A DNA stretch of 48,327 bases, taken from positions 1 to 48,327 of the IMG/VR virus record IMGVR_UViG_3300046736_000183. The stretch is one strand, 5' to 3'. Shown here in pieces: positions 15,022-38,307 of this stretch. The notes beneath the pieces were generated by a model. That model did no database searches, had not been told where the DNA came from, and was given only the letters and a program-made list of their open reading frames with translations. The position numbers and the translations under genes were made by a program. This DNA is from a virus. Every line of letters begins with the position of its first letter. Positions within the stretch are counted from its first letter, which is position 1.

Positions 15022-15905
15022 TTCACGGTCCTCCTTTGGCGTTCGTATTCGGTGAATCCTCGGTTGTGGCCCATCCAGTTGGCCAACTTGCCGACTGAGT
15101 AGCCGGGTGGCCCGGCCATCCATGTCCAGTTGCTCACGGGCTCAGGCGGCGGAGCCATCGGGATGGCACCTGGGGCTTCGGCACCGGTTCCCGCCGCTGC
15201 ACTGGCGGCAAGGATCGAGAGAACCTTCGGATCGTAGCCCTCCATTTTCGTCACCTCCGGGTTATTCGTAACGTACTCCTGTCCTGCTGCTGGACCCTGC
15301 TGGGCGACAGCCGCGTTGAACGCTGGCACCGTGCCCGCAGGCTGGAGCAAACCACCAGAGGCTTCCCCGAGCATTCCCGGCGCAATCTTCACGCCCGGCA
15401 AACCAGCTGCCGCAGCATTTAGCACAACGTTCAATCGCTCAGCATCAGCCTTTTGCTTCGCGGCCGCATCTTGGGAGGCATAGTGCGCGGCTTGATTCTC
15501 GGCAGCTTGGCGCTGGATGGCAGTTTGTTCCTGCTGTGCTTGCGGACCGTAGAGTGAGGCGGCCAGCTGGGCTTGCAGGTTGGCTGACTGAATCGGGGCG
15601 TTGGTCCGCTGCTGCCCCAAGGTGAACTCCGCTTGCTCCTGGCCCAGCCGTGCCGCCGCGGCTGCCGCCTGTGCCGCTTCATCCTGCGCCGGAATCCGGT
15701 TTACCAGTGCCTGCTGGATGGCGAAGTTGAGCGGATCAAGCTGCTGTGCTCTGGCCTGGGCTGCGGCATGGATCTCCGCCTGTCGCCCCTCTTGCGCCTG
15801 TCCCAAGGCTAATTGCTGGGCCAGGACCTGAAGCTGCAACTGCTCCTGCTGCTGCTTCTGGGGGTCGAACTGCTGCATCAGAGCCAACAGATCCCCGGTT
15901 CCCAT
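15018..15905 (-). CDS. Gln/Ala-rich coiled-coil virion protein
   Basis: A 295-residue protein dominated by Gln/Ala heptads (QQQEQLQLQVLAQQLALGQAQ, AAAAAARLGQEQAEF), typical of extended helical internal virion proteins of podoviruses. The C-terminal 60 residues are more mixed (NWTWMAGPPGYSVGKLANWMG). An AGGAGGGGGAGG run directly precedes the ATG at 15905, so I prefer that start to a 29-residue longer one. It lies in a different frame inside the 3' end of the glycosyltransferase gene. Confidence 0.65.
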   Translation of the reverse strand: MGTGDLLALMQQFDPQKQQQEQLQLQVLAQQLALGQAQEGRQAEIHAAAQARAQQLDPLNFAIQQALVNRIPAQDEAAQAAAAAARLGQEQAEFTLGQQRTNAPIQSANLQAQLAASLYGPQAQQEQTAIQRQAAENQAAHYASQDAAAKQKADAERLNVVLNAAAAGLPGVKIAPGMLGEASGGLLQPAGTVPAFNAAVAQQGPAAGQEYVTNNPEVTKMEGYDPKVLSILAASAAAGTGAEAPGAIPMAPPPEPVSNWTWMAGPPGYSVGKLANWMGHNRGFTEYERQRRTVK

Positions 15906-16935
15906 CCTCCCCCTCCTGTTCTCGCGTCTCTCGGATCGCCGGTCTAACCGTCTCTCGCGGCCCCGGGTAGTACTTGTTGGGTAAGAGTCCATTGGCGGGA
16001 TATTGGCTAAGGGTTAGGATCGTGTCCGGGTCAAAGAGAGTTGGGCGAAGATCACACTGATCGGTGCAGAGAGCACGGACTCTTTCCATCGTCAGGTAAG
16101 GATGGCTGACCGCTGGCAGGTAGCGGTGTCGTAAGGCTTCGTGCTTCAGTTCGACCAGCCGTGCTCGCAGCTTGTCATGGTCATGGATTCTCCCTGCGAG
16201 GTGCGGATCGAAAGAGCCTTCTGCCGCATAGGAAAAATGGAGCCCTGGCGTAACGGGATGCCGCGGCGGACAAACGATGAGCGGCAGGTATTCAGCGTAC
16301 ACGTCGAGATCCCAAAATCTGTTCCATTCGAGTCGTCCATTAACCTGTGAATGAACTTCACCTTGGCCAGCCAGCCAAAGGGACGGAGTGTAAACTCCCC
16401 ATTTCCGCGCCTGATGTGCTTCCTCCATCCAGTGATCCAGATGCCAAGTTTGGTCAGGCTTGAGGAATCCCGTGACATCCGTTATGTGCGTGAGGACCGA
16501 AGGAATGGCTGAACGGCTTAGAGCATAGGCGTGCGTGCGGTTCACGCGCGATGGCCGAAGAACAAGGGGATTGATCGATTCGTGCTTTCCACGGAATTGC
16601 CCGCCGAGATAAATCTGTCCCCAGTCCGCTGGAACATGCTTCATCAGGAGATCGAGCTTGGACGGAAAATCAGGCCCAAAAATGACGTCATCTTCAAGGA
16701 AAAGGGCTGTCTCCACGCCAGATTGCCATGCAGAATTAATTGCAAAGAGATGGCTAGTGTAACAACCCCACGCTCCTCCGCCAGCCTTCCACCACGGTGG
16801 CACACCAATTACGTCTCCGCGAAAAGCCGAAACGACCAATACTCGGTCACCAAGTCCCGCTTCACGGATACGCCTTAGAGCCGCATTCTTGCGTTCCGGA
16901 AGCGCAATTAAAAATACCTGATCAAAGTGCTTCAT
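15736..16935 (-). CDS. GT25-like glycosyltransferase
   Basis: A 399-codon frame. Residues 1-300 have the GT25 pattern: a start like 'VFLIALPERKNAAL', GAWGCYTSHLF (residues 55-64) and an E-D-D metal-binding triad at 81-83 (FLEDDVIFG). Enzymes of this type transfer sugars to LPS or surface glycans; here the target is unknown. Base composition is less GC-rich than in nearby late genes, suggesting transfer. The last 57 codons overlap the next gene and look low-complexity (Gly/Ala/Pro), so the real fold probably ends near NKYYPGP. It follows an HNH gene, overlapping its end by 14 bases. Confidence 0.68.
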   Translation of the reverse strand: MKHFDQVFLIALPERKNAALRRIREAGLGDRVLVVSAFRGDVIGVPPWWKAGGGAWGCYTSHLFAINSAWQSGVETALFLEDDVIFGPDFPSKLDLLMKHVPADWGQIYLGGQFRGKHESINPLVLRPSRVNRTHAYALSRSAIPSVLTHITDVTGFLKPDQTWHLDHWMEEAHQARKWGVYTPSLWLAGQGEVHSQVNGRLEWNRFWDLDVYAEYLPLIVCPPRHPVTPGLHFSYAAEGSFDPHLAGRIHDHDKLRARLVELKHEALRHRYLPAVSHPYLTMERVRALCTDQCDLRPTLFDPDTILTLSQYPANGLLPNKYYPGPRETVRPAIRETREQEGEDGNRGSVGSDAAVRPPEAAAGAVAASGPGPAISLGTGARGATGGDPCRSPGQSTAA

Positions 16936-27473: not shown

Positions 27474-29336
27474 TCATCCGTTGCAGATTTCGTTGCTGCC
27501 GCCAAGGAGGACCGCTCCGCCGCCGACCGGTGTCCCGTCGACCATCACAACATTCGCCGATCCCACATCCTGCGTGCTTTGGTATCCCAGGAAGGTGGTG
27601 GGTTTTTGCCAGGCGGTGTTTTGACGGATCGACGCGCACTGGTTGCGAATCCAGATCGCATAGTGGTTTTGAGTTGGCGGGTAGCCTGCTCGATTGCGAA
27701 ACACATTGCCCGAGAATTGGTGAAAGCCTGAAGCTGGCGTAATCGGAAGGTAGACGGCATCAGCGTAGATGAACTTGTGACCGCAGTCCTCGATCAGTGC
27801 GCCCTGGATGGTCACCCGTTCGCAGTCGGTGAGTCCGATGCCGCACGCTCCGTCGGCAATGGTGGAGGTGACATTCCGGATCCTGCACGCCCCGCGGACA
27901 ATCGTGTCCCCGGCGCCGTCCAACGTGAACCCATAGGCAGGCAGACCCGTGTGGGTGATGCCATCAACCTCGCACGAGTCGATGATGCCTTGAGCGAAGA
28001 AGCTGGGATTGGCGCCGGCGGCTGGATGACCAGCGACTCGTCCTCCGATCTCGAATCCGGCGTGCACACAATTTTTCACTGAGCAGTGATCGAAGATTCC
28101 GCCCGCGCAAAATCCCAATGAAAAGGCCATGTCGAGGCAGTTCTCCGCCCGGCACATCACCACCCGGGTGCGTTGATGGACATACTGGAGTTCATTGGCT
28201 GGCGTGGCCTCGAACCCATGGCGGGAGACATTGCCAAAGAAGCAGTTATGGATCAGGCAGTCGCGCCAGTTGGTGCCGCCGTAGACGGCGTTGTGCGTGC
28301 CAGGATCAGTCCCCGACCAAGTCAACCGGCCGAGGACCCGACAATCACGCATGACAAGGCGGGTGAAGCCGAAATTCAGGCAAGCTCCCATTTCCTTAAA
28401 CGTGTGGAGGAAGCACCGCTCAATCAGGACGTCGTCATGGGATGTGGTCGTCAAGCTGCCATCCTTCGAGATGCAACGCAGCCAGTTGTGAAGGGTGAGG
28501 CCGAGGAGCTTTGTCCGATGGCCGAGATTCTCCACTCCTTCAGAAAAGGCGATGCCGTAGAGGGTATTAGCGGTGAGATCCCCGGTGTGGAGCATCTCGA
28601 AATCACGCAGTGTGACGTCATCGGCCCGGACGGTGATGCCGCGGCGCAAGTGGACAGCGGGGAGCGGACTGATGGCAAAGCTCAAGACCGCACCGGTATC
28701 ACTCTTGATCGTCGTCCAACGAGCCGTGATGTTCTTCGGCGTGGTAAGTGTGATGACACCGCCCGTGCCCTCACCACGCAAGACCATCGATCGGCCAGCG
28801 GTCAACGCCGCGTCGAACTGAGCCTGGGTGTCGACCGTGACGAATGGGTCCTCGCTGACGTGCAGAGCCACCCTGACGGCCTCCGGATCAAGCCCGATCA
28901 CCTGGGGCAGGGTAACCGCCTCGGGCGTCCCTGCGCCCGTTGTGACGCGAGCAATGAGCCTCCCTTGGGCAAGGTTGGCCATGTCAGCGAGGGCGATCTT
29001 GCCGAGGGCCAGCTTGGTGCCGGGGACATCGAGGGCGATCATGTCAGCGACGGTCACCGCTTCCGGGACCCCAACGTCCACGCTCTTCCTGCCGATGACC
29101 ACTCCGCGTGGGAGCGGAGCCATGTCGACCAGTTCGACCGGGCCGGTGATCCCGCCATCACCGCCGACCAGCAGAGTGGTCAGCACACCTTCGGCATTGA
29201 ACCCGATGGCCCGACCTGGGTTCTCGTCGCCCTGGATGTTGACCACCTCGCGAGCGAACGGCGCCGTGGCGGCGCGCTGGTGCAGAGCCACGTTAGTCGC
29301 CCCTTCAGAGGTGGGTGTGTCGGAGAAGTCGGGCAT
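27474..29336 (-). CDS. Tailspike with beta-helix, second copy
   Basis: A 620-residue protein. Its N terminus (GATNVALHQRAATAPFAREVVNIQGDENPGRAIGF, about residues 11-45) is similar to that of the 800-aa neighbour, so it probably uses the same attachment site. Two short repeats follow with 'VTVADMIALD/VTLPQVIGLD' strands. From about residue 180 on, a right-handed parallel beta-helix is likely (VLIERCFLHTF, LVMRDCRVLGR, FDHCSVKNC, IDSCEVDGI). Such spikes bind or degrade surface polysaccharide. The start is the ATG at 29336 after the previous stop. Confidence 0.72.
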   Translation of the reverse strand: MPDFSDTPTSEGATNVALHQRAATAPFAREVVNIQGDENPGRAIGFNAEGVLTTLLVGGDGGITGPVELVDMAPLPRGVVIGRKSVDVGVPEAVTVADMIALDVPGTKLALGKIALADMANLAQGRLIARVTTGAGTPEAVTLPQVIGLDPEAVRVALHVSEDPFVTVDTQAQFDAALTAGRSMVLRGEGTGGVITLTTPKNITARWTTIKSDTGAVLSFAISPLPAVHLRRGITVRADDVTLRDFEMLHTGDLTANTLYGIAFSEGVENLGHRTKLLGLTLHNWLRCISKDGSLTTTSHDDVLIERCFLHTFKEMGACLNFGFTRLVMRDCRVLGRLTWSGTDPGTHNAVYGGTNWRDCLIHNCFFGNVSRHGFEATPANELQYVHQRTRVVMCRAENCLDMAFSLGFCAGGIFDHCSVKNCVHAGFEIGGRVAGHPAAGANPSFFAQGIIDSCEVDGITHTGLPAYGFTLDGAGDTIVRGACRIRNVTSTIADGACGIGLTDCERVTIQGALIEDCGHKFIYADAVYLPITPASGFHQFSGNVFRNRAGYPPTQNHYAIWIRNQCASIRQNTAWQKPTTFLGYQSTQDVGSANVVMVDGTPVGGGAVLLGGSNEICNG

Positions 29337-29340
29337 CGGA

Positions 29341-31743
29341 TCAGAGAGTTGTCTGGGCGTGGAGGTAGTAGGTAACACCTCCGATGTTCGCCCTGATCAG
29401 GGAAGTGACCGGACCGGGTGTCCCGGCAGTCAAAGCGCCGACATCCCAAACCACGCCGAGTCCGGTTTTCAAATTGTTGCACTCCACAGTCTGGCTGAAG
29501 AACCCATGCCGGAATCGGCTTCCTGTTTTGCCAAGATCCGGCGCACCGCCCGCGATCACCTGAAGGTCATCACCAACCCACATCTTGACCTGGGCACGCA
29601 GTTCACCCCCCGCGATGATCTGCTTCGCGGCATAGATGCCACCTGCGGTGATGACTGATCCGTTGCCACCGGTCGTGGCGTCGGTTGTGCTGTTGCAACG
29701 CAGTTCAGTATTCGCGATGATTTTCTTCCAGGCAAAGATGCCGCCTTGGGTAATCAGTGCCCCGGCCCCGCCAGGCGTAGCCTCAGTCGTGGACGCAAGA
29801 GCCAATGTCGAGGCGGATAGAGCGCCACTTAGTGCGAGGGTCGTGCCCGTAGTGCCAACCGGCAACCCCATGGTGCCAGTGCCACTCTCCTGCAAGCCAG
29901 TTGAGGCACCACCCAGGTTGGTATCGTTCCCGTAGATGGTGGAGTTCTGCGATGCGTTGAAGATGCCGTAGCGGTGGCAGTTTCCGGCGGGGATGACTTC
30001 GTAGACGGAGGTTGCATCAGGAGGTGTTGCCCAGGCAGGGGTAACCGTTGCGACCTTGGTCGAGCCAACGTAAGCGGTGATTGTCCCGGTTTGACCCGAC
30101 CCGGTGCCGGAAAGGATCGTTATCTTGTATCCGACATAGTCGCCGTTGGAGACACTGGCGCTGGAGGCAAGCGTGACCGTGGAAGCGCCGCCTGCCTGGG
30201 CGGTGGCTGACTGCGACACCGCGCACTTCTTCACATCGTTGCCGAAAACAAGGTGCCCGGTGCCGACGATATAGATAGCATCTGAAACCGGAGAACTCGC
30301 GAGTCCGCACTCACTCACCTTGTTGCCCGAGCAGAGGACGTTCTGGGCAGCGGTGTTGAGGATGATGCCGATGGTCTGGATGCGCTCGATCCGGTTGTTG
30401 AAGACTTGGGATGCCGTCCCGCGCACATCGATACCCCTGCCATAAGCAGATGCGCCGGGAGTTCCGATGTCCTGGATCAGGTTGTAGCCAATCCGGTTAT
30501 TGGTGGTGGGAAACGCCGCAAGAGTTGCAGCGGAGGAGATGGCATCGTCCTTGGTGTTGCGAATGACATTGCCTAGGATCGAGATGCCTTGGGAATTGTT
30601 AAAGGAGATGCCCTTGTTGCCGCCGTCGATGACGCACCCCGTGACGAGGCCACCGTTGCAACTGCCAGCGGAGATGATGTCCGAGGCAGGGTCGTTGTCA
30701 TGGAAGACGCAGTTCTCGATCGTGAAGTCCTGGGCCTTCGTGAGGTTGAGGGCGAGCCCACTGCCCGCGGGCGGAAATTCTTCCGGGGGCGTTGGGGCAG
30801 GACGAGGGCTGTGTCCGAAGAACTCGCAGTTGAGCACTTTCGTGCGAACCGCCTTTTTTCCGCTGCTCCCCGCGACGATGGCAAGCCCCGTGTAGTGAGC
30901 CCCACTGAAGATGCACCTGTCGAAGGTAACATCCTCGGCGTCCTCTGGCGACTCAATCTCCATGTCGAACGCCATGTATTCGTAGGGATCGGAGAAGACA
31001 CTGCCGACAATGTTGATCTTCTTTCCGCCCGTGATGCAGCCGCAGTGGCGATTGCCGCCGTAGCATTCGACATTTTCAACCCGGATGTTGGTGCCGCCCT
31101 GGATCAAAAGGTCGTCCAACCAGCAGTCGCGGATGACCATGTCGCGCACCGTGATGTTGTTGCAACCAGTCTGGATGTTGACGCCGGTCCCGTAACCCGT
31201 GAGGCGGGTCAGGTCAGTTGTATTGTCGCCGACAATCTCACCGCCTTCGATGAGGATATCGCTGCCTCCAGCGATGCGAAAGACGATCCATTTGCGGCTA
31301 TTCTCATCAGGAAGCGGGAGCGGTGTCGGGATGGAAACGATGATCCGCGTCTTCTTTCCCATCCTGATCGTGGTGCCCGAGGGCACGTTGATCAAGCCCC
31401 CGGTGAAGGAGCAGTCGAGATAGTAGTCACCGTCAGGGATGACGAGTGTGGTTTGGGTCCGCCCCGCAGCATAGGCCATCATGGCACGCCAGGCCGTCTT
31501 GTTGGCGGCGGCGGCGTCCTCGTCCCCTGCGATCAATCCGAATGTGGCTGCCGCGTTAATCTCGCCATTGCCCGAGGGAATCGCACCAAGGACGCCATCG
31601 TCATCGAACCCGATCGCCTTCCCTGCGTTCTCATCGCCCTGGATGCCGATCGCCTGCCGGTGCCATGGGGCATCCAGGCTACGTTGGTTAAGTAAAACAT
31701 TTGTTGCTCCCGCTGCTGTGGGGCTGTCGTTGGTGATTGGCAT
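29341..31743 (-). CDS. Tailspike with beta-helix (pectate lyase-like)
   Basis: An 800-residue protein. Residues 10-50 (GATNVLLNQRSLDAPWHRQ, IQGDENAGKAIGF) form the attachment module shared with the next gene. Residues about 75-480 carry the repeated 'NNITVRDMVIRDC', 'NIRVENVECYGG', 'FTIENCVFHDN' rungs of a parallel beta-helix, and a C-terminal part (about 500-800) with Gly/Thr/Ser-rich strands and 'GSVITAGGIYAAKQIIAGGEL' repeats. Possible polysaccharide-binding or lyase activity; no catalytic residues can be assigned from sequence. It starts with AATAAACGACTACTGAT before the ATG, without a Shine-Dalgarno. Confidence 0.75.
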   Translation of the reverse strand: MPITNDSPTAAGATNVLLNQRSLDAPWHRQAIGIQGDENAGKAIGFDDDGVLGAIPSGNGEINAAATFGLIAGDEDAAAANKTAWRAMMAYAAGRTQTTLVIPDGDYYLDCSFTGGLINVPSGTTIRMGKKTRIIVSIPTPLPLPDENSRKWIVFRIAGGSDILIEGGEIVGDNTTDLTRLTGYGTGVNIQTGCNNITVRDMVIRDCWLDDLLIQGGTNIRVENVECYGGNRHCGCITGGKKINIVGSVFSDPYEYMAFDMEIESPEDAEDVTFDRCIFSGAHYTGLAIVAGSSGKKAVRTKVLNCEFFGHSPRPAPTPPEEFPPAGSGLALNLTKAQDFTIENCVFHDNDPASDIISAGSCNGGLVTGCVIDGGNKGISFNNSQGISILGNVIRNTKDDAISSAATLAAFPTTNNRIGYNLIQDIGTPGASAYGRGIDVRGTASQVFNNRIERIQTIGIILNTAAQNVLCSGNKVSECGLASSPVSDAIYIVGTGHLVFGNDVKKCAVSQSATAQAGGASTVTLASSASVSNGDYVGYKITILSGTGSGQTGTITAYVGSTKVATVTPAWATPPDATSVYEVIPAGNCHRYGIFNASQNSTIYGNDTNLGGASTGLQESGTGTMGLPVGTTGTTLALSGALSASTLALASTTEATPGGAGALITQGGIFAWKKIIANTELRCNSTTDATTGGNGSVITAGGIYAAKQIIAGGELRAQVKMWVGDDLQVIAGGAPDLGKTGSRFRHGFFSQTVECNNLKTGLGVVWDVGALTAGTPGPVTSLIRANIGGVTYYLHAQTTL

Positions 31744-31755
31744 ATCAGTAGTCGT

Positions 31756-34206
31756 TTATTGAAAGCTCACGCTGCCTGCGCCGGAACCGAATGCCGCGCT
31801 GCCCGCGCCTGCGCCAATGGCGACTGAGCCGCCGCCCGATGGCGGTTCCGGGTCGATCGGAGCGTCTCCGGTCAGCGGGTGAGGGTAGGTGTATGCGGTG
31901 TATCCGGGCATCGGTGTGCCGTTGAAGTAGTGGACGCCCGAACGGATGGTCCCGCTGGTTGAAACGAACCCGGCGATTGCCTGATTGCCTCCTGCGCCCG
32001 CGCTTCCGTTGTTCCACTCATACCAAGGGTAGGTGGTCTGGTTGTTCCATCCGACCGGGAGAGCAGGGGTTGCCGTGTCGTCAATGAGACTGCCGTCGGA
32101 TCGCCCCGCCTGGTCGATCCCGTGCGTCACCCGGTTGATCTCGAAAGTCTCACCGGGGAGGAAGACCAGAGTGGTCGCGCCAAAGCCGGTAAGGGCACTG
32201 TCCTTGAATGTCAGTCTCTCATTGGTGTTGCTGACGATTTCGGAGAAATGATTCCCCTTGCAGGCTTTGATCGTGCCGGTTGCAGGGGTTGTCGGAAGAG
32301 ATCCGACGGTGTCGGCTGTGAACGTGTTCACGCCCGTGACCGTGACGTTATACCAGAGGTTGTTATACTCCTGCTGGGTCGCGCCGTAGGTGCTCACCTC
32401 GTCCCCGGTGACGAACCCGTGGCTGGGCGCGGTGACGGTGATGGTTGTGCCGCTCCGGGTGATGCCACTCACCGCCACTCCCCCAGTCTTCCGCAGGGTG
32501 TACCCAGCCCATTGATTAGTCGTCCACCCCTGCCCTGTGTCCGTCATGGTGAGAGCGGTGGCACTGTCGCACGTTCCCGTGTCGAACGGGTTGCCAGCAT
32601 CATTGGCGTCCCACGGGTTGCGCCCGTCCGCTCCACCGTATGGGGCGAACAGAGGATCAGCGGCCCGGTTGTTCAGGAGGGAGAACGGTAGAGTGTAACC
32701 ACCCGCCACATTGGAGATGGCATTGCTGTAAATCAGCCCAACTCCGCCCCGGAAGTAGGTGACGTAGCTGTTCCGACTGTCCTGATCGAAGGAGTTATTG
32801 TAGATCTCGACGGCGTGAGTGGACCGCTCGTAGGACGCCTCGCTGCCGTGTCCTTCGAGGTATCCGCCGAACGTCGTATTATGACGGTAGACCCAGCGTG
32901 CTCCCGCCTGCGAGTCGATGAGTGACCGGAGCGTGCTGCCAGCGGCACAGGTGACTGTGTTGGTTTCAAAAAAGAGGAAGTTTGCGCCGCCGAAGTTGGG
33001 ACCGTCATCGAGCGCCCCGTTGCCCTTGGTGGAGCCATCCCAAAGCGATCCTTTGATGTGGGCGAGGAGGTTGCCGGAGAAGTCCCGCAGGAGCATCGTG
33101 TTGTTGTCGATGCAGCCGGTGACGGTATCGACCTGGAACAATGTGGCCTTGCAGCCGTCAAACTTGCAGTGGTCCACACGCAGGGCACTGCCATTGGTAT
33201 TGCTGCCGTCCGCGTGAATGATGGCGTATCCATCGGTACGGGTTCCAACATCAAACTCAATTCCGGTGATCCGCGTTGTCCGTGAGGCAACGAGATCAAT
33301 GTCGAAGATCATGTCCCAGTAGGTCAGGTTATCGGTGATCATCGTGCTCCCGATGCCGGCGCCCTGGATGGTGATTCCCTTGGTGACCGCGAGGGTCGAG
33401 GTCCATGACCCGGTCCCGGCTGGGATCGTCACGGTGTCGCCATCCACCGCCATGCCGTAGGCAATGCCGACCGCCGAGCGCGAGGCATCGATGCTCGCCC
33501 AACTAGCGGGATCGCCTTCGAGTTGCTGGAGTCTTCCGTAGATCGCCGCCGCATTACGCGCAACGCCAGCCGCGTTTAAATGCGTCGTGTCCGTTCCCGT
33601 GAGGTCGAACGAGGTTTTGAGGTTATTGAGGTTTGCTGGATCAGCCATCCAGTCGTGGAATTTGATAAGGGGGATAGAGTTGGTGGTGGCCCATGACGTG
33701 AGCGAGACATTCCATGCGTTGATACTGGCAGCACTTGCCAACCCCGATGGAGCAACCTCCTCGACCACCATCAGAACTCCACCCGCCACGCATGAGGCTT
33801 TGATCTGGTCGAACCACGTCTGCATGGTTGCCCAGGTGGCACCGCCGGAAAGGTTATTGATTCCGCCCTCAACGATGAGGTATTTCGGGTGTTGCGGGAT
33901 GGCGTTGTTGTTGGATACCGAGAAAATGTAATTCATTCCCGCGCCAGCAGCCGCCCAGTTGCTGCCGGTGACGACGTTGCCCGAGAGGGTGTAAACCACT
34001 GCTGCAATGTTCGATGTGGCGCTTCCCGATGGTCCGCCTTCGGCTTGGGTGGTGAAGAGGTTCCACCCAGCCATCACCGAGTCGCCCACGTAACTGGCGA
34101 ACGGAGCGCCAGGATGCGCGACGGCATGAGCAGCGACCGCACTGGCAAGCGTGCCGTTGGCGGCCGGCGCAATCAGGAGCAGTAGGGCGGCGAGGAATGA
34201 GCGCAT
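31756..34206 (-). CDS. Secreted-type fibre with SGNH esterase domain and beta-helix
   Basis: An 816-residue protein. It begins with a Sec signal peptide (MRSFLAALLLLIAPAANG). Residues about 36-220 are SGNH hydrolase-like: block I G41-D42-S43, an Asn of block III at 117 (EGGINN) and block V D206-T-T-H209. So the catalytic triad Ser43, Asp206, His209 is intact. From about residue 230 to the end, beta-helix and jelly-roll-like strands follow. An esterase at the tail could remove acetyl groups from host surface polysaccharide. The ATG overlaps the previous stop (TAATG). The signal peptide is unusual for a virion protein. Confidence 0.72.
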   Translation of the reverse strand: MRSFLAALLLLIAPAANGTLASAVAAHAVAHPGAPFASYVGDSVMAGWNLFTTQAEGGPSGSATSNIAAVVYTLSGNVVTGSNWAAAGAGMNYIFSVSNNNAIPQHPKYLIVEGGINNLSGGATWATMQTWFDQIKASCVAGGVLMVVEEVAPSGLASAASINAWNVSLTSWATTNSIPLIKFHDWMADPANLNNLKTSFDLTGTDTTHLNAAGVARNAAAIYGRLQQLEGDPASWASIDASRSAVGIAYGMAVDGDTVTIPAGTGSWTSTLAVTKGITIQGAGIGSTMITDNLTYWDMIFDIDLVASRTTRITGIEFDVGTRTDGYAIIHADGSNTNGSALRVDHCKFDGCKATLFQVDTVTGCIDNNTMLLRDFSGNLLAHIKGSLWDGSTKGNGALDDGPNFGGANFLFFETNTVTCAAGSTLRSLIDSQAGARWVYRHNTTFGGYLEGHGSEASYERSTHAVEIYNNSFDQDSRNSYVTYFRGGVGLIYSNAISNVAGGYTLPFSLLNNRAADPLFAPYGGADGRNPWDANDAGNPFDTGTCDSATALTMTDTGQGWTTNQWAGYTLRKTGGVAVSGITRSGTTITVTAPSHGFVTGDEVSTYGATQQEYNNLWYNVTVTGVNTFTADTVGSLPTTPATGTIKACKGNHFSEIVSNTNERLTFKDSALTGFGATTLVFLPGETFEINRVTHGIDQAGRSDGSLIDDTATPALPVGWNNQTTYPWYEWNNGSAGAGGNQAIAGFVSTSGTIRSGVHYFNGTPMPGYTAYTYPHPLTGDAPIDPEPPSGGGSVAIGAGAGSAAFGSGAGSVSFQ

Positions 34207-35006
34207 TACCATGAGGCGTATGGCAGACCCGCCCCTCCGTTGTAAAGCAGGGTGATATCCGCCGGTGAGAGCACCCGGTTCTTCCAGAACATCACAGGAC
34301 CGATGAGCCCGTCGAAGCATCGAGCCCCTCCGACGACCGCGCCGACGTTGAGTGGGCCGGAACCTGCAAATGTGCCACCGGTCCACGCGGCAGTGTCAGC
34401 CGCGCCTGCGTTCACGGAGATGCCTATTTGGTCAGTGGCACCTCCCGCGTGCCAGGCGACGAGCATGTGCCATGCGGCGAGCCCCGGTGAGCCGAAGGTG
34501 TTGGCCGGGACACGGGCATTGGCGGAGTTGTTGCCGACAGTGAAGGCGTATCGGTTGTAGCCGGCGTTGTCCATGATGAGGCCGTACTCGCAGGAGTTGT
34601 TATTGGCGACGCCCGCGCCGTCCTTGGTGAAGATGTCGTTGTCGAAGGAGTCCTTGGATTCGAGTTTGACCCAGACGGCGATGGTGAAGGAAGTGTCAGT
34701 GCTGAGTTGGAGCGTCGCCTCGCTCGCACGGCTGAAGTATTGGGAGGAGGAGAACTCGAGATCAGCGACTGTCGAATAGACGAGACCGGTGCCAGTGCCA
34801 GGAGCACCGTTAGGCGTGAGTGTCTGGCCACTGACAAGGTCGAGACGGTTGCCACTCGCCTCGTCCATCTTCCAGAAGCAGGTAAGGTTGGTGAGGAGGC
34901 CGGTACCGGCGGGAGCACCGGCAAACCTGTACGGGTTGATGATCGGTCCCGCAGCGGTGGCCACACAGCACAGCAGGATGAAGAGGATGAAGAGGAGCTT
35001 TTTCAT
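34206..35006 (-). CDS. LamG/concanavalin-like fibre protein with signal peptide
   Basis: A 266-residue protein beginning with a Sec signal peptide (MKKLLFILFILLCCVATAAG). The segment NPYRFAG follows, then a beta-sandwich of LamG/concanavalin A-like type: LTCFWKMDEASGNRLDLV, YFSRASEATLQLSTDTSFTIAVWVKL, ending with GGARCFDGLIGPVMFW and LYNGGAGLPY. Such domains bind glycans. Its ATG overlaps the previous stop. Confidence 0.72.
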   Translation of the reverse strand: MKKLLFILFILLCCVATAAGPIINPYRFAGAPAGTGLLTNLTCFWKMDEASGNRLDLVSGQTLTPNGAPGTGTGLVYSTVADLEFSSSQYFSRASEATLQLSTDTSFTIAVWVKLESKDSFDNDIFTKDGAGVANNNSCEYGLIMDNAGYNRYAFTVGNNSANARVPANTFGSPGLAAWHMLVAWHAGGATDQIGISVNAGAADTAAWTGGTFAGSGPLNVGAVVGGARCFDGLIGPVMFWKNRVLSPADITLLYNGGAGLPYASW

Positions 35007-35965
35007 CGGTAGCCGTAGACCCAGACTTTGAGCCCCTTTGCGCCGGTGCCCGCCACATCGATGTCGAAGGTCAACTGGGCATCGTCAGCGATGGCAGAGT
35101 CGGAGATAACCGCAGCCGCCGCAGCGGTGACGCTGGTGAATTCCGAGGCGTCGATGGTCAACTTCGTTGAAAGGACAGTGGTCCCCGCACCCGCGCCTTC
35201 GTTGATGTCCACGGTGGGCAGGCCGGAACTGGAGACCGTGTTCACCGACGCCCGAACGCCCGTCAGCGTGAAGGCATACGGCGCCCTCATGGTGACCTTG
35301 GCGGTGCCGGTGGTGATGACCGTGGTTTCATCACTCATGGCGACGCAGAACTCGACCGGCAACTGCGTTGCGGCATCCAACTCGGCGAGAGTGTCAATTG
35401 CCGCCGCGGTGAGCAGTGGCTGGCCTTCGATCGAGAGGACGCCGGAGGCGGCTGTCAGAGTGTTAGCCGTGGCGTGGCCGAGTTCGATGCTGGTGACCGG
35501 CAGGGTCGTCAACGTGCCGAGCGAGACGGTGGCGGCGGTCAGGTTCCAGACAGAAGCCGCGGAGGCAGTGACGTTGGCGAAGGTGTTGGTCCCGGTCCAC
35601 GTGTTGTTGTCAGCCAACCCAGCACCGCCTGATGCCGCGGCCCATTCAAGTGCAGTGCCGGCGGCATTGACTCGGAGGACTTGCAACGCAGTTCCCTTGG
35701 CGAGGCGAACAGCAATATCGAGGCCACTGCCGACAGCGAGGTCTCCGACGGCATCCCACAGCGTGTCAGTGGCCACGGAGCCAGAGCCACCAGCCACCGC
35801 CGCAATGATCGGTCTGCCCTCGGCATCGAAGGTAATGACATGACCGGGCGTGGTGGTCATGGGCACGGGCGAGTAGTTACCCGAGGTGCCTTCACGGTGG
35901 TCGATTCTGACCATATCAGCCGAGGCAACCCCGAGCAACAAGAGTGGAAGGAATCGGCGCATCAT
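35003..35965 (-). CDS. Tail fibre with repetitive body and conserved C-terminal domain, signal peptide-like N terminus
   Basis: A 320-residue protein. The first 17 residues (MMRRFLPLLLLGVASAD) look like a Sec signal. The body has the common fibre motifs DTLWDAVGDLAVGSG, RLAKGTALQVLRVNAAGTALEWAA and TWTGTNTFANVTASA. The C-terminal 120 residues (VAMSDETTVITTGTAKVTM, AFTLTGVRASVNT, VDINEG, FDIDVAGTGAKGLKVWVYG) match a widespread phage fibre C-terminal domain. The ATG overlaps the upstream stop (ATGA). Confidence 0.75.
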   Translation of the reverse strand: MMRRFLPLLLLGVASADMVRIDHREGTSGNYSPVPMTTTPGHVITFDAEGRPIIAAVAGGSGSVATDTLWDAVGDLAVGSGLDIAVRLAKGTALQVLRVNAAGTALEWAAASGGAGLADNNTWTGTNTFANVTASAASVWNLTAATVSLGTLTTLPVTSIELGHATANTLTAASGVLSIEGQPLLTAAAIDTLAELDAATQLPVEFCVAMSDETTVITTGTAKVTMRAPYAFTLTGVRASVNTVSSSGLPTVDINEGAGAGTTVLSTKLTIDASEFTSVTAAAAAVISDSAIADDAQLTFDIDVAGTGAKGLKVWVYGYR

Positions 35966-36441
35966 GGGAGTTCGTCGTAAACTGACAGGTAGCGCACCTC
36001 ACCGTCCGGAAAGACGACGCGCATAAACTCGGAACCATCAGAGCCGACGACGAGCGAGGTTTCACCGCCAGGCGGCATCCCCGGAATGCCCTCGGTGGCC
36101 GTGACCGGCATGGCGTACGTCACACTGGCCAAGGTGACGTAGAACGTATCGTTAAGGATGATCCCGCCCACAGGGGCATTGCCCTCGACTTGGCTCGCCG
36201 GCGATGACCACGTGCCCCCGGCGTAGTGGAACAGAAGCGTATCCGCCTCGGCGGTGATGAGGCCGGAAGGCAAGGTAGTCGGACCGACGAACGTGACCGG
36301 AGCCTCGTAGACGTAGCCGGTGACCGGGTCGGTGAGGTAGACGACATCATCGACGACGATGAACGTGACGCGTGCGCCAGGTGTGCCGGGCGTGCCCGGA
36401 GACGTGCCAGTGGGACGGGTTCCGAGGTGAATGCCTCTCAT
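35962..36441 (-). CDS. Short collagen-like fibre or spike protein
   Basis: A 159-residue protein with a Gly-Pro-Thr-Pro-Gly repeat-like start (GTSPGTPGTPGARV), two beta-rich halves (VTFIVVDDVVYLTDPVTGYVYEAP, IILNDTFYVTLASV) and a second Gly/Pro stretch (TEGIPGMPPGGETS). This layout is common in short phage fibre or hub proteins. It overlaps the endolysin gene by four bases (ATGA). Confidence 0.6.
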   Translation of the reverse strand: MRGIHLGTRPTGTSPGTPGTPGARVTFIVVDDVVYLTDPVTGYVYEAPVTFVGPTTLPSGLITAEADTLLFHYAGGTWSSPASQVEGNAPVGGIILNDTFYVTLASVTYAMPVTATEGIPGMPPGGETSLVVGSDGSEFMRVVFPDGEVRYLSVYDELP

Positions 36442-36956
36442 TGCAACAGTCTTATAAAATTGCGCATCTCGTCGCGTGACCGGATCTTGATGTAGGCGCC
36501 GTCGCCATCACGTTCACCCATCGGCCCGGTGTTGCACTCAAGGGTGATGAGGTTGTTGCCGCGATCGGTCCAGACCACGGCAATGTGGCTGCAGTCGAAG
36601 ATGGCCATGTCGCCGCAGTGGAGGGTGTCGTAGGAGCCGATCAGCTCGACCTCCTCGGCACCCTCAGCCCAGTCGTTCCAGTCGAAGACAGCGGCAGACT
36701 TCGGGCGCCAGTCCTCGAGCCACCCCGCGGACTTGTTGAAGGCAGCCTGGACCTCGGGGAGTTGGAGCCACTGGTGGACGAACCAGACCTGGCCGGCAGC
36801 ACAGTACGGCTCTTCGTTTGAGTAGCCGTCCGGGTAGCTGGTCATGGGCCAGTATTTCTTGATCCAGTCTGCCTGGTTGTGAGTGTCCTCGACCTTGCCC
36901 ATGTCCTGGAGGGCAATCTGGATGAGCTTCTCGCGGATGTCGTAGGTGTCACTCAT
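36438..36956 (-). CDS. Endolysin of CHAP/NlpC-P60 type
   Basis: A 172-residue protein. The catalytic Cys is C52 in EPYCAAGQVWFVHQW; the His is H124 in DCSHIAVVWTD; TLECNTG (about 138-144) gives the third position. This order and spacing fit a CHAP or NlpC/P60 cysteine amidase/peptidase that cuts peptidoglycan. No signal or cell-wall-binding domain is visible, so it would need the holin for export. It overlaps its neighbours by four bases on each side, in a lysis cassette. Confidence 0.8.
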   Translation of the reverse strand: MSDTYDIREKLIQIALQDMGKVEDTHNQADWIKKYWPMTSYPDGYSNEEPYCAAGQVWFVHQWLQLPEVQAAFNKSAGWLEDWRPKSAAVFDWNDWAEGAEEVELIGSYDTLHCGDMAIFDCSHIAVVWTDRGNNLITLECNTGPMGERDGDGAYIKIRSRDEMRNFIRLLQ

Positions 36957-37138
36957 GGCTTGGGCAGGGAGTTTAGAATTTCCTGGAGTTCATCTCGGAT
37001 GGCGCGTTGTTCGGCTCTGATCTCTGACATCTCCTCGCGCATCGCCTGAGCATTCGACGAAATCCTCTGCCACAGGACGCCCACTGAGAAGACAGCCACG
37101 ACCACAGTGATGAGGGATTGGAGGGAGCCATTTTTCAA
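36953..37138 (-). CDS. Small membrane protein with coiled coil, candidate inner-membrane spanin or holin
   Basis: A 61-residue protein starting at a TTG that overlaps the previous stop as TTGA. One transmembrane helix (SLITVVVAVFSVGVLW) is followed by an amphipathic charged helix of heptad type (EEMSEIRAEQRAIRDEL). A single N-terminal membrane span followed by a coiled coil is the topology of an i-spanin, and the neighbouring lipoproteins could be the outer partner. The family is not recognised; the role rests on position. Confidence 0.55.
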   Translation of the reverse strand: MKNGSLQSLITVVVAVFSVGVLWQRISSNAQAMREEMSEIRAEQRAIRDELQEILNSLPKP

Positions 37139-37524
37139 GGTGTAACGGGCAGAGTGGCCGGGTGGAGGATGCGGAACTTTTCGAGGTCGTTGGCGAGGCG
37201 CAGTTGCTCGAGGGTGGTGGCCTCGCGAGCGCGAGCAACGGATGCCCGTGTGGCGGCCAGCCCCCGGACCTTGGTCGAGGTGATGGCAGCCTCGGCGACG
37301 TTCTCGCCGGACTTCGCAACAGCGATGGCACCGATGAGTTGCATCGTGTCCTGCCACGGCTGGTTGAATTTCCCGTGCATGACGGCAGTGCCATCGGGCT
37401 TGATGACGATGGTGGTGTTGCCGGCCAGATGCCCGCGGTCCGTGTATGTTGTCCCGTTAGGCATCGTGAGGGTCCTTCCGGTCTGGCACCCTGTTAGGGC
37501 AAGAACCGGAAGGAGTAGTTTCAT
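37135..37524 (-). CDS. Lipoprotein in the lysis cassette
   Basis: A 129-residue protein with a very short lipoprotein signal and lipobox LTGC at residues 10-13 (MKLLLPVLALTGCQ). The rest has a beta region (TIVIKPDGTAVMHGKF) and then a helical, positively and negatively charged part (RASVARAREATTLEQLRLANDLEKF). It could be the outer-membrane spanin partner of the next gene. The ATG at 37524 overlaps the previous stop (ATGA). Confidence 0.6.
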   Translation of the reverse strand: MKLLLPVLALTGCQTGRTLTMPNGTTYTDRGHLAGNTTIVIKPDGTAVMHGKFNQPWQDTMQLIGAIAVAKSGENVAEAAITSTKVRGLAATRASVARAREATTLEQLRLANDLEKFRILHPATLPVTP

Positions 37525-37625
37525 TGGGCGATGATGGCAGCGACGGCTTGGTCGATGGGATCCGGAGCCTGGTCGAGGGAGGAGCAGGCGGGCAGGAGCA
37601 GGGCAATGGCGAGCGCGAGCCTCAT
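37521..37625 (-). CDS. Tiny lipoprotein of 34 residues
   Basis: A 34-residue protein: MRLALAIALLLPACSS gives a lipobox LPAC with Cys at 14, leaving about 20 mature residues (DQAPDPIDQAVAAIIAQ). It is linked by ATGA overlaps to the genes on both sides. Such very small lipoproteins resemble Rz1-type o-spanins in scale, although mature Rz1 is typically Pro-rich and this one is only partly so. A second lipoprotein follows immediately. Confidence 0.55.
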   Translation of the reverse strand: MRLALAIALLLPACSSLDQAPDPIDQAVAAIIAQ

Positions 37626-37810
37626 CGGGTGCGGATGACTGGGCCACCGCCGAGCAGCCCGAAGGCACTTAAAAGCCAGAGGATGACGGCGACGACTGCG
37701 ATCCCGACGATGATCTGCGGGAACGGCTTCGGCATCGGGACGTAGGTCAGCAGAAGCCAGAGCAGGAACCCGATGACCGCAAGGATCAGGATAAGGTAGA
37801 TGATGTTCAT
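37622..37810 (-). CDS. Two-helix membrane protein, holin candidate (Thivi_2564-like)
   Basis: A 62-residue protein with two transmembrane helices (IIYLILILAVIGFLLWLLL and IIVGIAVVAVILWLLSAFG) separated by a short loop with YVPMPKPFPQ. A basic end (VIRTR) follows. This resembles the small Thivi_2564-type membrane proteins and the general class II holin topology. It stands at the head of the lysis cassette in front of two lipoproteins, a membrane coiled coil and an endolysin. Confidence 0.62.
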   Translation of the reverse strand: MNIIYLILILAVIGFLLWLLLTYVPMPKPFPQIIVGIAVVAVILWLLSAFGLLGGGPVIRTR

Positions 37811-38307
37811 GCCGCGGCGTGAGCGTGCGCCTTCTTGGAGTTGGCGACCGGGGTGCCGATATCCTCGGGTGGCGGTTCAGCCAGTGGCTGGGCCCATGCG
37901 GGGGCGGATGGCCAGTAGGGTTCGCGGACAGCCGGAGGCAGGGCGGCGCCGGCCGGCAGGTCAATCGTGCCGTCTTCCTTGACGGCAGGCGGCATGGCTT
38001 CGCGGGAAGCCTTCTTGGCGTCCTCCTCGCTGAGGTGTTCAACCTCCTTGCCGTTGGCGTCCTTGGCTGCGCGCTCGCTATTGGCTTTGATGCGCTTGCC
38101 ACGAGCGGAGTCCTCGAAGGCCTTGGTCCTGGCTTCCTCGTCAGCCTTGACTTCCTCCTGGTGCTTTTCGAGAGCCTCGAAGGTGTCGACGGGTCGGAGC
38201 TTGGCGGACTGGGTTGAGGACCTGCGCTGGGCGTCAGCGGCTGAGATTCTGTCCTGCTCAGCGCGGTCAGCGGGGGACAGGTGATCGTGGGTGGTGTGAG
38301 AAGCCAT
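37807..38307 (-). CDS. Charged, Ala/Lys/Glu-rich protein before the holin
   Basis: A 166-residue, probably largely helical and disordered protein (AEQDRISAADAQRRSSTQSAKLRP, EEVKADEEARTKAFEDSARGK) with a Pro-rich end (AQPLAEPPPED) and a His/Ala tail. No known motif. The ATG at 38307 follows the A/C leader CAGATAATACTACC, with no Shine-Dalgarno. It overlaps the holin gene by four bases. Confidence 0.55.
   Translation of the reverse strand: MASHTTHDHLSPADRAEQDRISAADAQRRSSTQSAKLRPVDTFEALEKHQEEVKADEEARTKAFEDSARGKRIKANSERAAKDANGKEVEHLSEEDAKKASREAMPPAVKEDGTIDLPAGAALPPAVREPYWPSAPAWAQPLAEPPPEDIGTPVANSKKAHAHAAA

Follow-up and report, generated by a model that had tools for sequence, protein, structure and literature searches.

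The window, that is, the whole stretch of 48,327 bases analysed here, is an IMG/VR record of an uncultured virus that carries a terminase and a portal of the SU10/PaP2 type, and its virus is therefore a tailed phage, probably podovirus-like. Contamination with host genes was ruled out, since terminase and portal lie in a virus record; a scan of the genome collection returned five loci and no host. The three genes of interest, designated C, B and A, occupy the ordinary fibre slot in a minus-strand run of structural and lysis genes, with the following features:

35003 to 35965, minus strand: gene C, a 320-aa fibre protein with a Sec signal, the first member of a two-gene module; its C-terminal domain has relatives in named phages
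35918 to 35965, minus strand: Sec signal of C, MMRRFLPLLLLGVASA; score 4.77, predicted cleavage before Asp
35006 to 35359, minus strand: C-terminal fibre-tip domain of C (residues ~203-320), from alignments, an AF2 model and a PDB match; proposed platform for B
34206 to 35006, minus strand: gene B, a 266-aa protein of LamG lectin type, the INPYRF partner, with a Sec signal
34953 to 35006, minus strand: Sec signal of B, MKKLLFILFILLCCVATA; score 5.83, a clean N-terminal addition relative to leaderless relatives
34923 to 34940, minus strand: INPYRF motif of B, a few residues past the predicted cleavage; proposed docking peptide
31756 to 34212, minus strand: gene A, 816-818 aa, an SGNH/GDSL esterase domain followed by a long part, with a Sec signal
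34162 to 34212, minus strand: Sec signal of A, MVMRSFLAALLLLIAPA; score 5.22
33559 to 34089, minus strand: SGNH/GDSL domain of A, PF13472 (E 6e-9, 37.1 bits, cut-off 32.9), with GDS, GINN and DTTH motifs
35962 to 36441, minus strand: small leaderless ORF directly upstream of C, with a 4-bp overlap; no Pfam or PHROG match
36438 to 36956, minus strand: endolysin-like gene, phrog_9589 (E 1e-4)
29341 to 31743, minus strand: leaderless beta-helix spike, PF13229; no signal
27474 to 29378, minus strand: leaderless beta-helix spike, PF13229; N-terminal domain common to the other spike (z 24.6)

The C and B genes overlap by 4 bp (ATGA) and B and A by 1-7 bp, the start of A being possible at 34206 or 34212, and lysis genes lie directly upstream of the set. 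The gene order suggests late expression of A, B and C, which is more in keeping with a virion role than with superinfection exclusion early in infection; a scan for promoters and terminators gave nothing above chance. Two overlapping small ORFs at 37135-38102 on the minus strand have lipoprotein-like starts (MKLLLPVLALTGC and MRLALAIALLLPAC) and are adjoined by a small membrane protein at 37622-37810; together they are probably lysis genes of the spanin/holin type. A glycosyltransferase family 25 gene of the LPS biosynthesis type (15736-16935, minus strand; PF01755, E 2.6e-7) stands among the structural genes. The two leaderless spikes (27474-31743) share their first ~60 residues and diverge beyond. 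The sibling contig L010 is 88% identical to the window in the portal and 47% in the C-terminal part of the second spike, and it ends short of the A-B-C region.

The original prediction held that three neighbouring genes here all begin with Sec-type signals, and this was confirmed with a home-made scorer that evaluates a charged n-region, a hydrophobic core and the -3/-1 rule, and that found five of six known signals (MalE was missed). On this heuristic scorer, A (5.22), B (5.83) and C (4.77) all show a positive n-region, a hydrophobic core and small residues at -3 and -1, with cleavage predicted between MMRRFLPLLLLGVASA and DMVRIDH in C, between MKKLLFILFILLCCVATA and AGPIINPYRF in B and between MVMRSFLAALLLLIAPA and ANGTLAS in A. 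Chance hydrophobic starts were rejected: across the 1,534 ATG, GTG or TTG positions of the window, both strands, that open at least 60 codons, a score of 4.77 or more is reached at the starts of A, B and C only, and when their first 40 residues are shuffled, the score is matched or exceeded in at most 0.05% of cases. The background rate in related phage loci is 1.4% (12 signals in 841 predicted ORFs). The +1 residues in the window are D, A and A, and so do not follow the Bacteroidetes Q rule (Gln at +1). The same scorer detected no signal on either spike (29341-31743 and 27474-29378) or on the endolysin-like gene (36438-36956). It is very probable, from these sequence features, that the signals of A, B and C truly drive export. 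The exported proteins are poor in cysteine (7 in the 796 residues of A, 3 in the 247 of B and 1 in the 304 of C) in comparison with the leaderless spikes (17 in 800 and 18 in 619), which fits, without proving it, an oxidising compartment.

The bodies of the three proteins were likewise found to be of the fibre or hydrolase kind that had been predicted. A carries a GDSL lipase domain (PF13472) above cut-off, with the catalytic Ser, Asn and Asp/His motifs (GDS, GINN, DTTH) intact; its long C-terminal part has no Pfam match, and A has no close relatives in INPHARED or IMG/VR. B is a LamG protein (PF13385, E 1e-14; AF2 pLDDT 79). C has no Pfam match, but its C-terminal domain resembles phage tail-fibre proteins: the last 118 residues share 47-60% identity with the fibre proteins of named phages and are modelled by AF2 at a pLDDT of ~94. 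The best PDB match of this model is the tail fibre tip of Agrobacterium phage 7-7-1 (Z 10.0, rmsd 2.2, 103 residues aligned), followed by the baseplate protein of Klebsiella phage KP1 (Z 8.3); a sequence search of solved structures with the same domain gave no match. The motif PGHVITFDAEG in C resembles PGRAIGFNAEG in the N-terminal domain shared by the leaderless spikes (z 4.7), a likeness that lends weak support to virion attachment. No peptidoglycan hydrolase domain was detected in A, B or C by Pfam or PHROGs.

By domain, gene order and motif, C and B are a two-gene module that is common in tailed phages, in which a fibre with a conserved C-terminal domain is followed by an overlapping gene that starts "M..INPYRF". 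C has this domain at its gene end, at 47-60% identity to the named relatives, and B follows with its 4-bp overlap and with AGPIINPYRF after the predicted cleavage. Five named phages, namely Sphingomonas phage Carli, Synechococcus phages S-CRM01 and MinM2, Microcystis phage Mwe-JY26 and Rhodobacteraceae phage LS06-2018-MD05, have a leaderless fibre gene of the C type and a next gene that overlaps it by 1-4 bases and bears an INPYRF-like motif near its N-terminus. These share with C and B the C-terminal domain, the order, the overlap and the N-terminal motif of the partner, and differ from them in having no signal on either protein. Two IMG/VR scans gave more than 570 relatives each; pooling the best 80 of each scan yielded 113 distinct complete first proteins and 119 next genes, and the INPYRF-type motif is present on 113 of these 119. 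Aligned with its leaderless relatives, B carries its signal as a clean N-terminal addition ahead of their first residues, L129 aligning to B from residue 22 on. We propose that the INPYRF peptide of B would dock on the C-terminal domain of C. At L119 (3024-4494), two tandem INPYRF-type partner genes stand behind one fibre gene and may be alternative tips competing for one dock. At L056 (5336-6910; Microcystis phage Mwe-JY26), the partner is of an INPF type and carries a D-alanyl-D-alanine carboxypeptidase annotation over one region, which is unusual as the cargo of an adhesin slot.

In the same pool of the best 80 of more than 570 relatives per scan, only six of the 113 first proteins bear a signal: those of the window, L094, L140, L197, L199 and L215. 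A signalled first protein is followed by a signalled partner in five of these six modules, counting the partner in L094 (MRAEILILLFACAQVFA followed by Q), which the scorer missed because of an early Glu and which was called by eye; L140 has a signal on one partner only, and no leaderless module has a signalled partner. This pairing is significant (Fisher p ~4e-8, or 8e-7 with L199 and L215 counted once). Mapped on the tree of the C-terminal domain, the signal label requires at least five changes, and every signalled row has a leaderless nearest relative, apart from L199, which is nearest to the signalled L215. Repeated and independent gain of the signals is thus supported at the level of sequence, as are the signals themselves, the module and the co-occurrence of signals on the two partners. 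In the five exported partners, the predicted cleavage site lies 4-6 residues ahead of NPY, and the leaderless tally is 3-6 residues in 100 of 106 rows, one outlier being the signalled partner of L094 (overlapping locus). Cleavage would consequently restore the native N-terminus and its native distance to NPY. In L215 and L140, the signal stands ahead of N-termini that resemble, by eye, ordinary leaderless fibre starts (ISALPAASTPTG and IRDLPTTTALAVGD), and L215 has a third signalled gene in the position of A. It is difficult to account for the pairing and the spacing unless both partners have to arrive, with native N-termini, in one and the same compartment outside the cytoplasm.

Signalled fibre genes also occur in runs in crAss-like, podo-like and sipho-like phages: seven such fibre-like genes in the L002 contig, three in G005 and three in the L094 contig. 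The crAss-like phage L012 has four in a row, and one of its proteins has the K1-lyase C-terminal domain of phage tail spikes. A terminase query against six signal-bearing contigs gave no match, and they are therefore not near kin. PHROGs identified packaging or virion genes in G002, G003 and G004, and no clear packaging match was found among the few proteins of G005 and G001 that were searched. Many signalled fibre genes of Bacteroidetes-type phages have Gln at +1. This Q rule is a feature of the substrates of the signal peptidase in Bacteroidetes hosts (PMC10367356). In L094 (3871-6336), adjacent exported genes share ~88 N-terminal residues including the signal, at 43% identity, and contain repeats of the SL..H.LSAI.AYY type.

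A relative of the exported fibre of L197 led to the Cellulophaga phages. In phi19:1, four consecutive genes, gp101-gp104, bear the record note 'structural protein, annotation based on experimental MS/MS proteomics analysis'. All four open with a Sec-type signal, followed by Gln at +1 in gp101-gp103; that of gp104 was called by eye; gp97 and gp98 of the same phage have the same note and no signal. According to this record note, which is given without mature N-termini and could also cover a co-purified secreted protein, signal-bearing fibre proteins occur in phi19:1 virions. Related phages from other families (phi46:3, phi13:2, Nekkels and Ingeline) reuse the signal and N-terminal unit. The first 60 residues of phi19:1 gp102 and phi46:3 gp80 are 100% identical and the last 150 only 21%, which, as an alignment, is the pattern of constant anchor and variable tip of tail fibres, with the signal within the constant part. 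All five of these phages resemble the window in that fibre-like genes stand in runs of three to five and all carry Sec-type signals. Their proteins differ from A, B and C in sequence and domains and have Q-rule signals, the link between the two being the fibre of L197. The fibre and tail proteins of phi18:1, an MS-studied Cellulophaga phage, and the spikes of Flavobacterium immuto are without signals, and the feature is therefore not general even among flavophages.

Two readings of the signals had been offered in the original prediction, a membrane anchor removed in assembly or secretion from the infected cell. Export itself is well supported, and the anchor is weakened by the short core, by the cleavage site and by the restoration of a native N-terminus on cleavage. 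The evidence favours a third option, in which the exported proteins remain virion fibres, because the proposed docking motif and the domain that partners it have been retained and are co-exported, and because of the MS/MS record notes of phi19:1. We therefore lean, with moderate confidence, towards A, B and C being receptor-binding virion fibre proteins that have gained Sec signals and that would be exported and then joined to the virion. The main rival is that they are exported without being virion parts, the lectin of B and the esterase of A masking or altering the receptor polysaccharide in the periplasm or outside the cell, which would keep sibling phages out and spare the progeny from being trapped on debris. 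The lectin and esterase domains are indeed present, and the two leaderless spikes could be the receptor binders of the virion itself. Phages are also known to export host-modifying proteins such as Lom (PMC12309495), and those of Porphyromonas have secreted proteins of unknown function (PMC10367356). However, the putative docking motif and platform domain, retained and exported jointly, would be superfluous for a free effector, signalled proteins are assigned to the virions of phi19:1 by its record notes, and the genes stand in an ordinary fibre slot among late genes; we thus consider this rival possible but rather unlikely.

It could also be argued that the signals are look-alikes, hydrophobic stretches that serve cytoplasmic folding or docking and are retained on the protein, and phage prohead proteases, instead of a signal peptidase, are believed to remove some of the signals predicted on the capsid proteins of phages (PMC10367356). 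The canonical n-, h- and c-regions with their cleavage sites, the Gln at +1 in many Bacteroidetes-type cases, the native N-terminus that cleavage restores and the leaderless relatives, which work without the stretch, all make this improbable. Slightly less credit still is due to the idea that the starts are misplaced or doubled, the real proteins beginning inside without signals or both forms being made. C does have an in-frame ATG just past its signal, and B an in-frame GTG within it. Nevertheless, in A the stretch from the signal to the SGNH catalytic block is free of in-frame starts, the usual overlaps result from the outer starts, three signals could not arise by chance, and the N-termini read in the other signalled modules contain no internal start near the cleavage site. 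Judged on sequence, mis-called starts were rejected for A and are unlikely for B and C.

We propose that, as exported virion fibres, C, B and A would be made late, among the structural and lysis genes, exported by the Sec machinery of the host and cleaved by signal peptidase I, leaving a native N-terminus that in B presents the INPYRF motif. C and B would then pair outside the cytoplasm, with the C-terminal domain of C as platform and the INPYRF of B as docking peptide. The C/B/A set could be attached to particles within the periplasm, or at lysis as virions and periplasmic contents come together, B supplying lectin binding and A acting as an esterase on surface polysaccharide. Virion membership of A, B and C in this phage is what we infer, whereas their export is well supported; we likewise infer the place and time of assembly and the role of the esterase of A. 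As the window keeps two leaderless spikes, the exported set may be dispensable for adsorption.

The usual teaching is that the virions of tailed phages are put together entirely in the cytoplasm, and it would seem that some tailed phages send fibres out of it before these join the virion. A broader proposition, on which we are evenly divided, is that there is a widespread, hitherto unrecognised class of tailed phages with a two-compartment virion, whose capsid and tail are cytoplasmic and whose fibres are exported by Sec, matured in the periplasm and attached at or after lysis. Fibre modules and the use of Sec by phages (endolysins, Lom) are already known, and the assembly route would be novel if confirmed. 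Secreted endolysins (Lys44 of fOg44 and the SAR endolysins) are, like A, B and C, late proteins of tailed phages that use the host Sec system, but they are lysis enzymes and not virion fibres (PMC6116005). Lom of phage lambda is a signal-bearing product encoded beside tail-fibre genes, as are A, B and C, but it is a host outer-membrane protein, whereas A, B and C are fibre-like (PMC12309495). The phages of Porphyromonas gingivalis (Nixviridae) have Q-rule secreted proteins, with host-adapted Sec signals on phage genes, which were described as of unknown function and not recognised as fibres (PMC10367356). No description of fibre genes with signal peptides or of Sec-exported virion fibres was found in open-licence papers; the earlier remark that no standard example is known thus holds for that literature, but deposited records do contain a precedent that has gone unremarked (phi19:1), the signals in the Cellulophaga-type records having been passed over.

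If the hypothesis is true, assembly in two compartments could allow chemistry that is forbidden in the cytoplasm and could keep active adhesins or esterases off cytoplasmic targets. Receptor-binding proteins with Sec signals that evolved repeatedly would also change the view of how host range is set and of where the last assembly step takes place, and such signals would be a practical flag for receptor-binding proteins in phage genomes. The idea of exported fibres is directly testable in the cultured phage phi19:1. As a separate observation, the locus L149 (744-6818 of IMGVR_UViG_3300025117_000077) has seven consecutive genes with signals or lipoprotein signals adjoining lysis genes.
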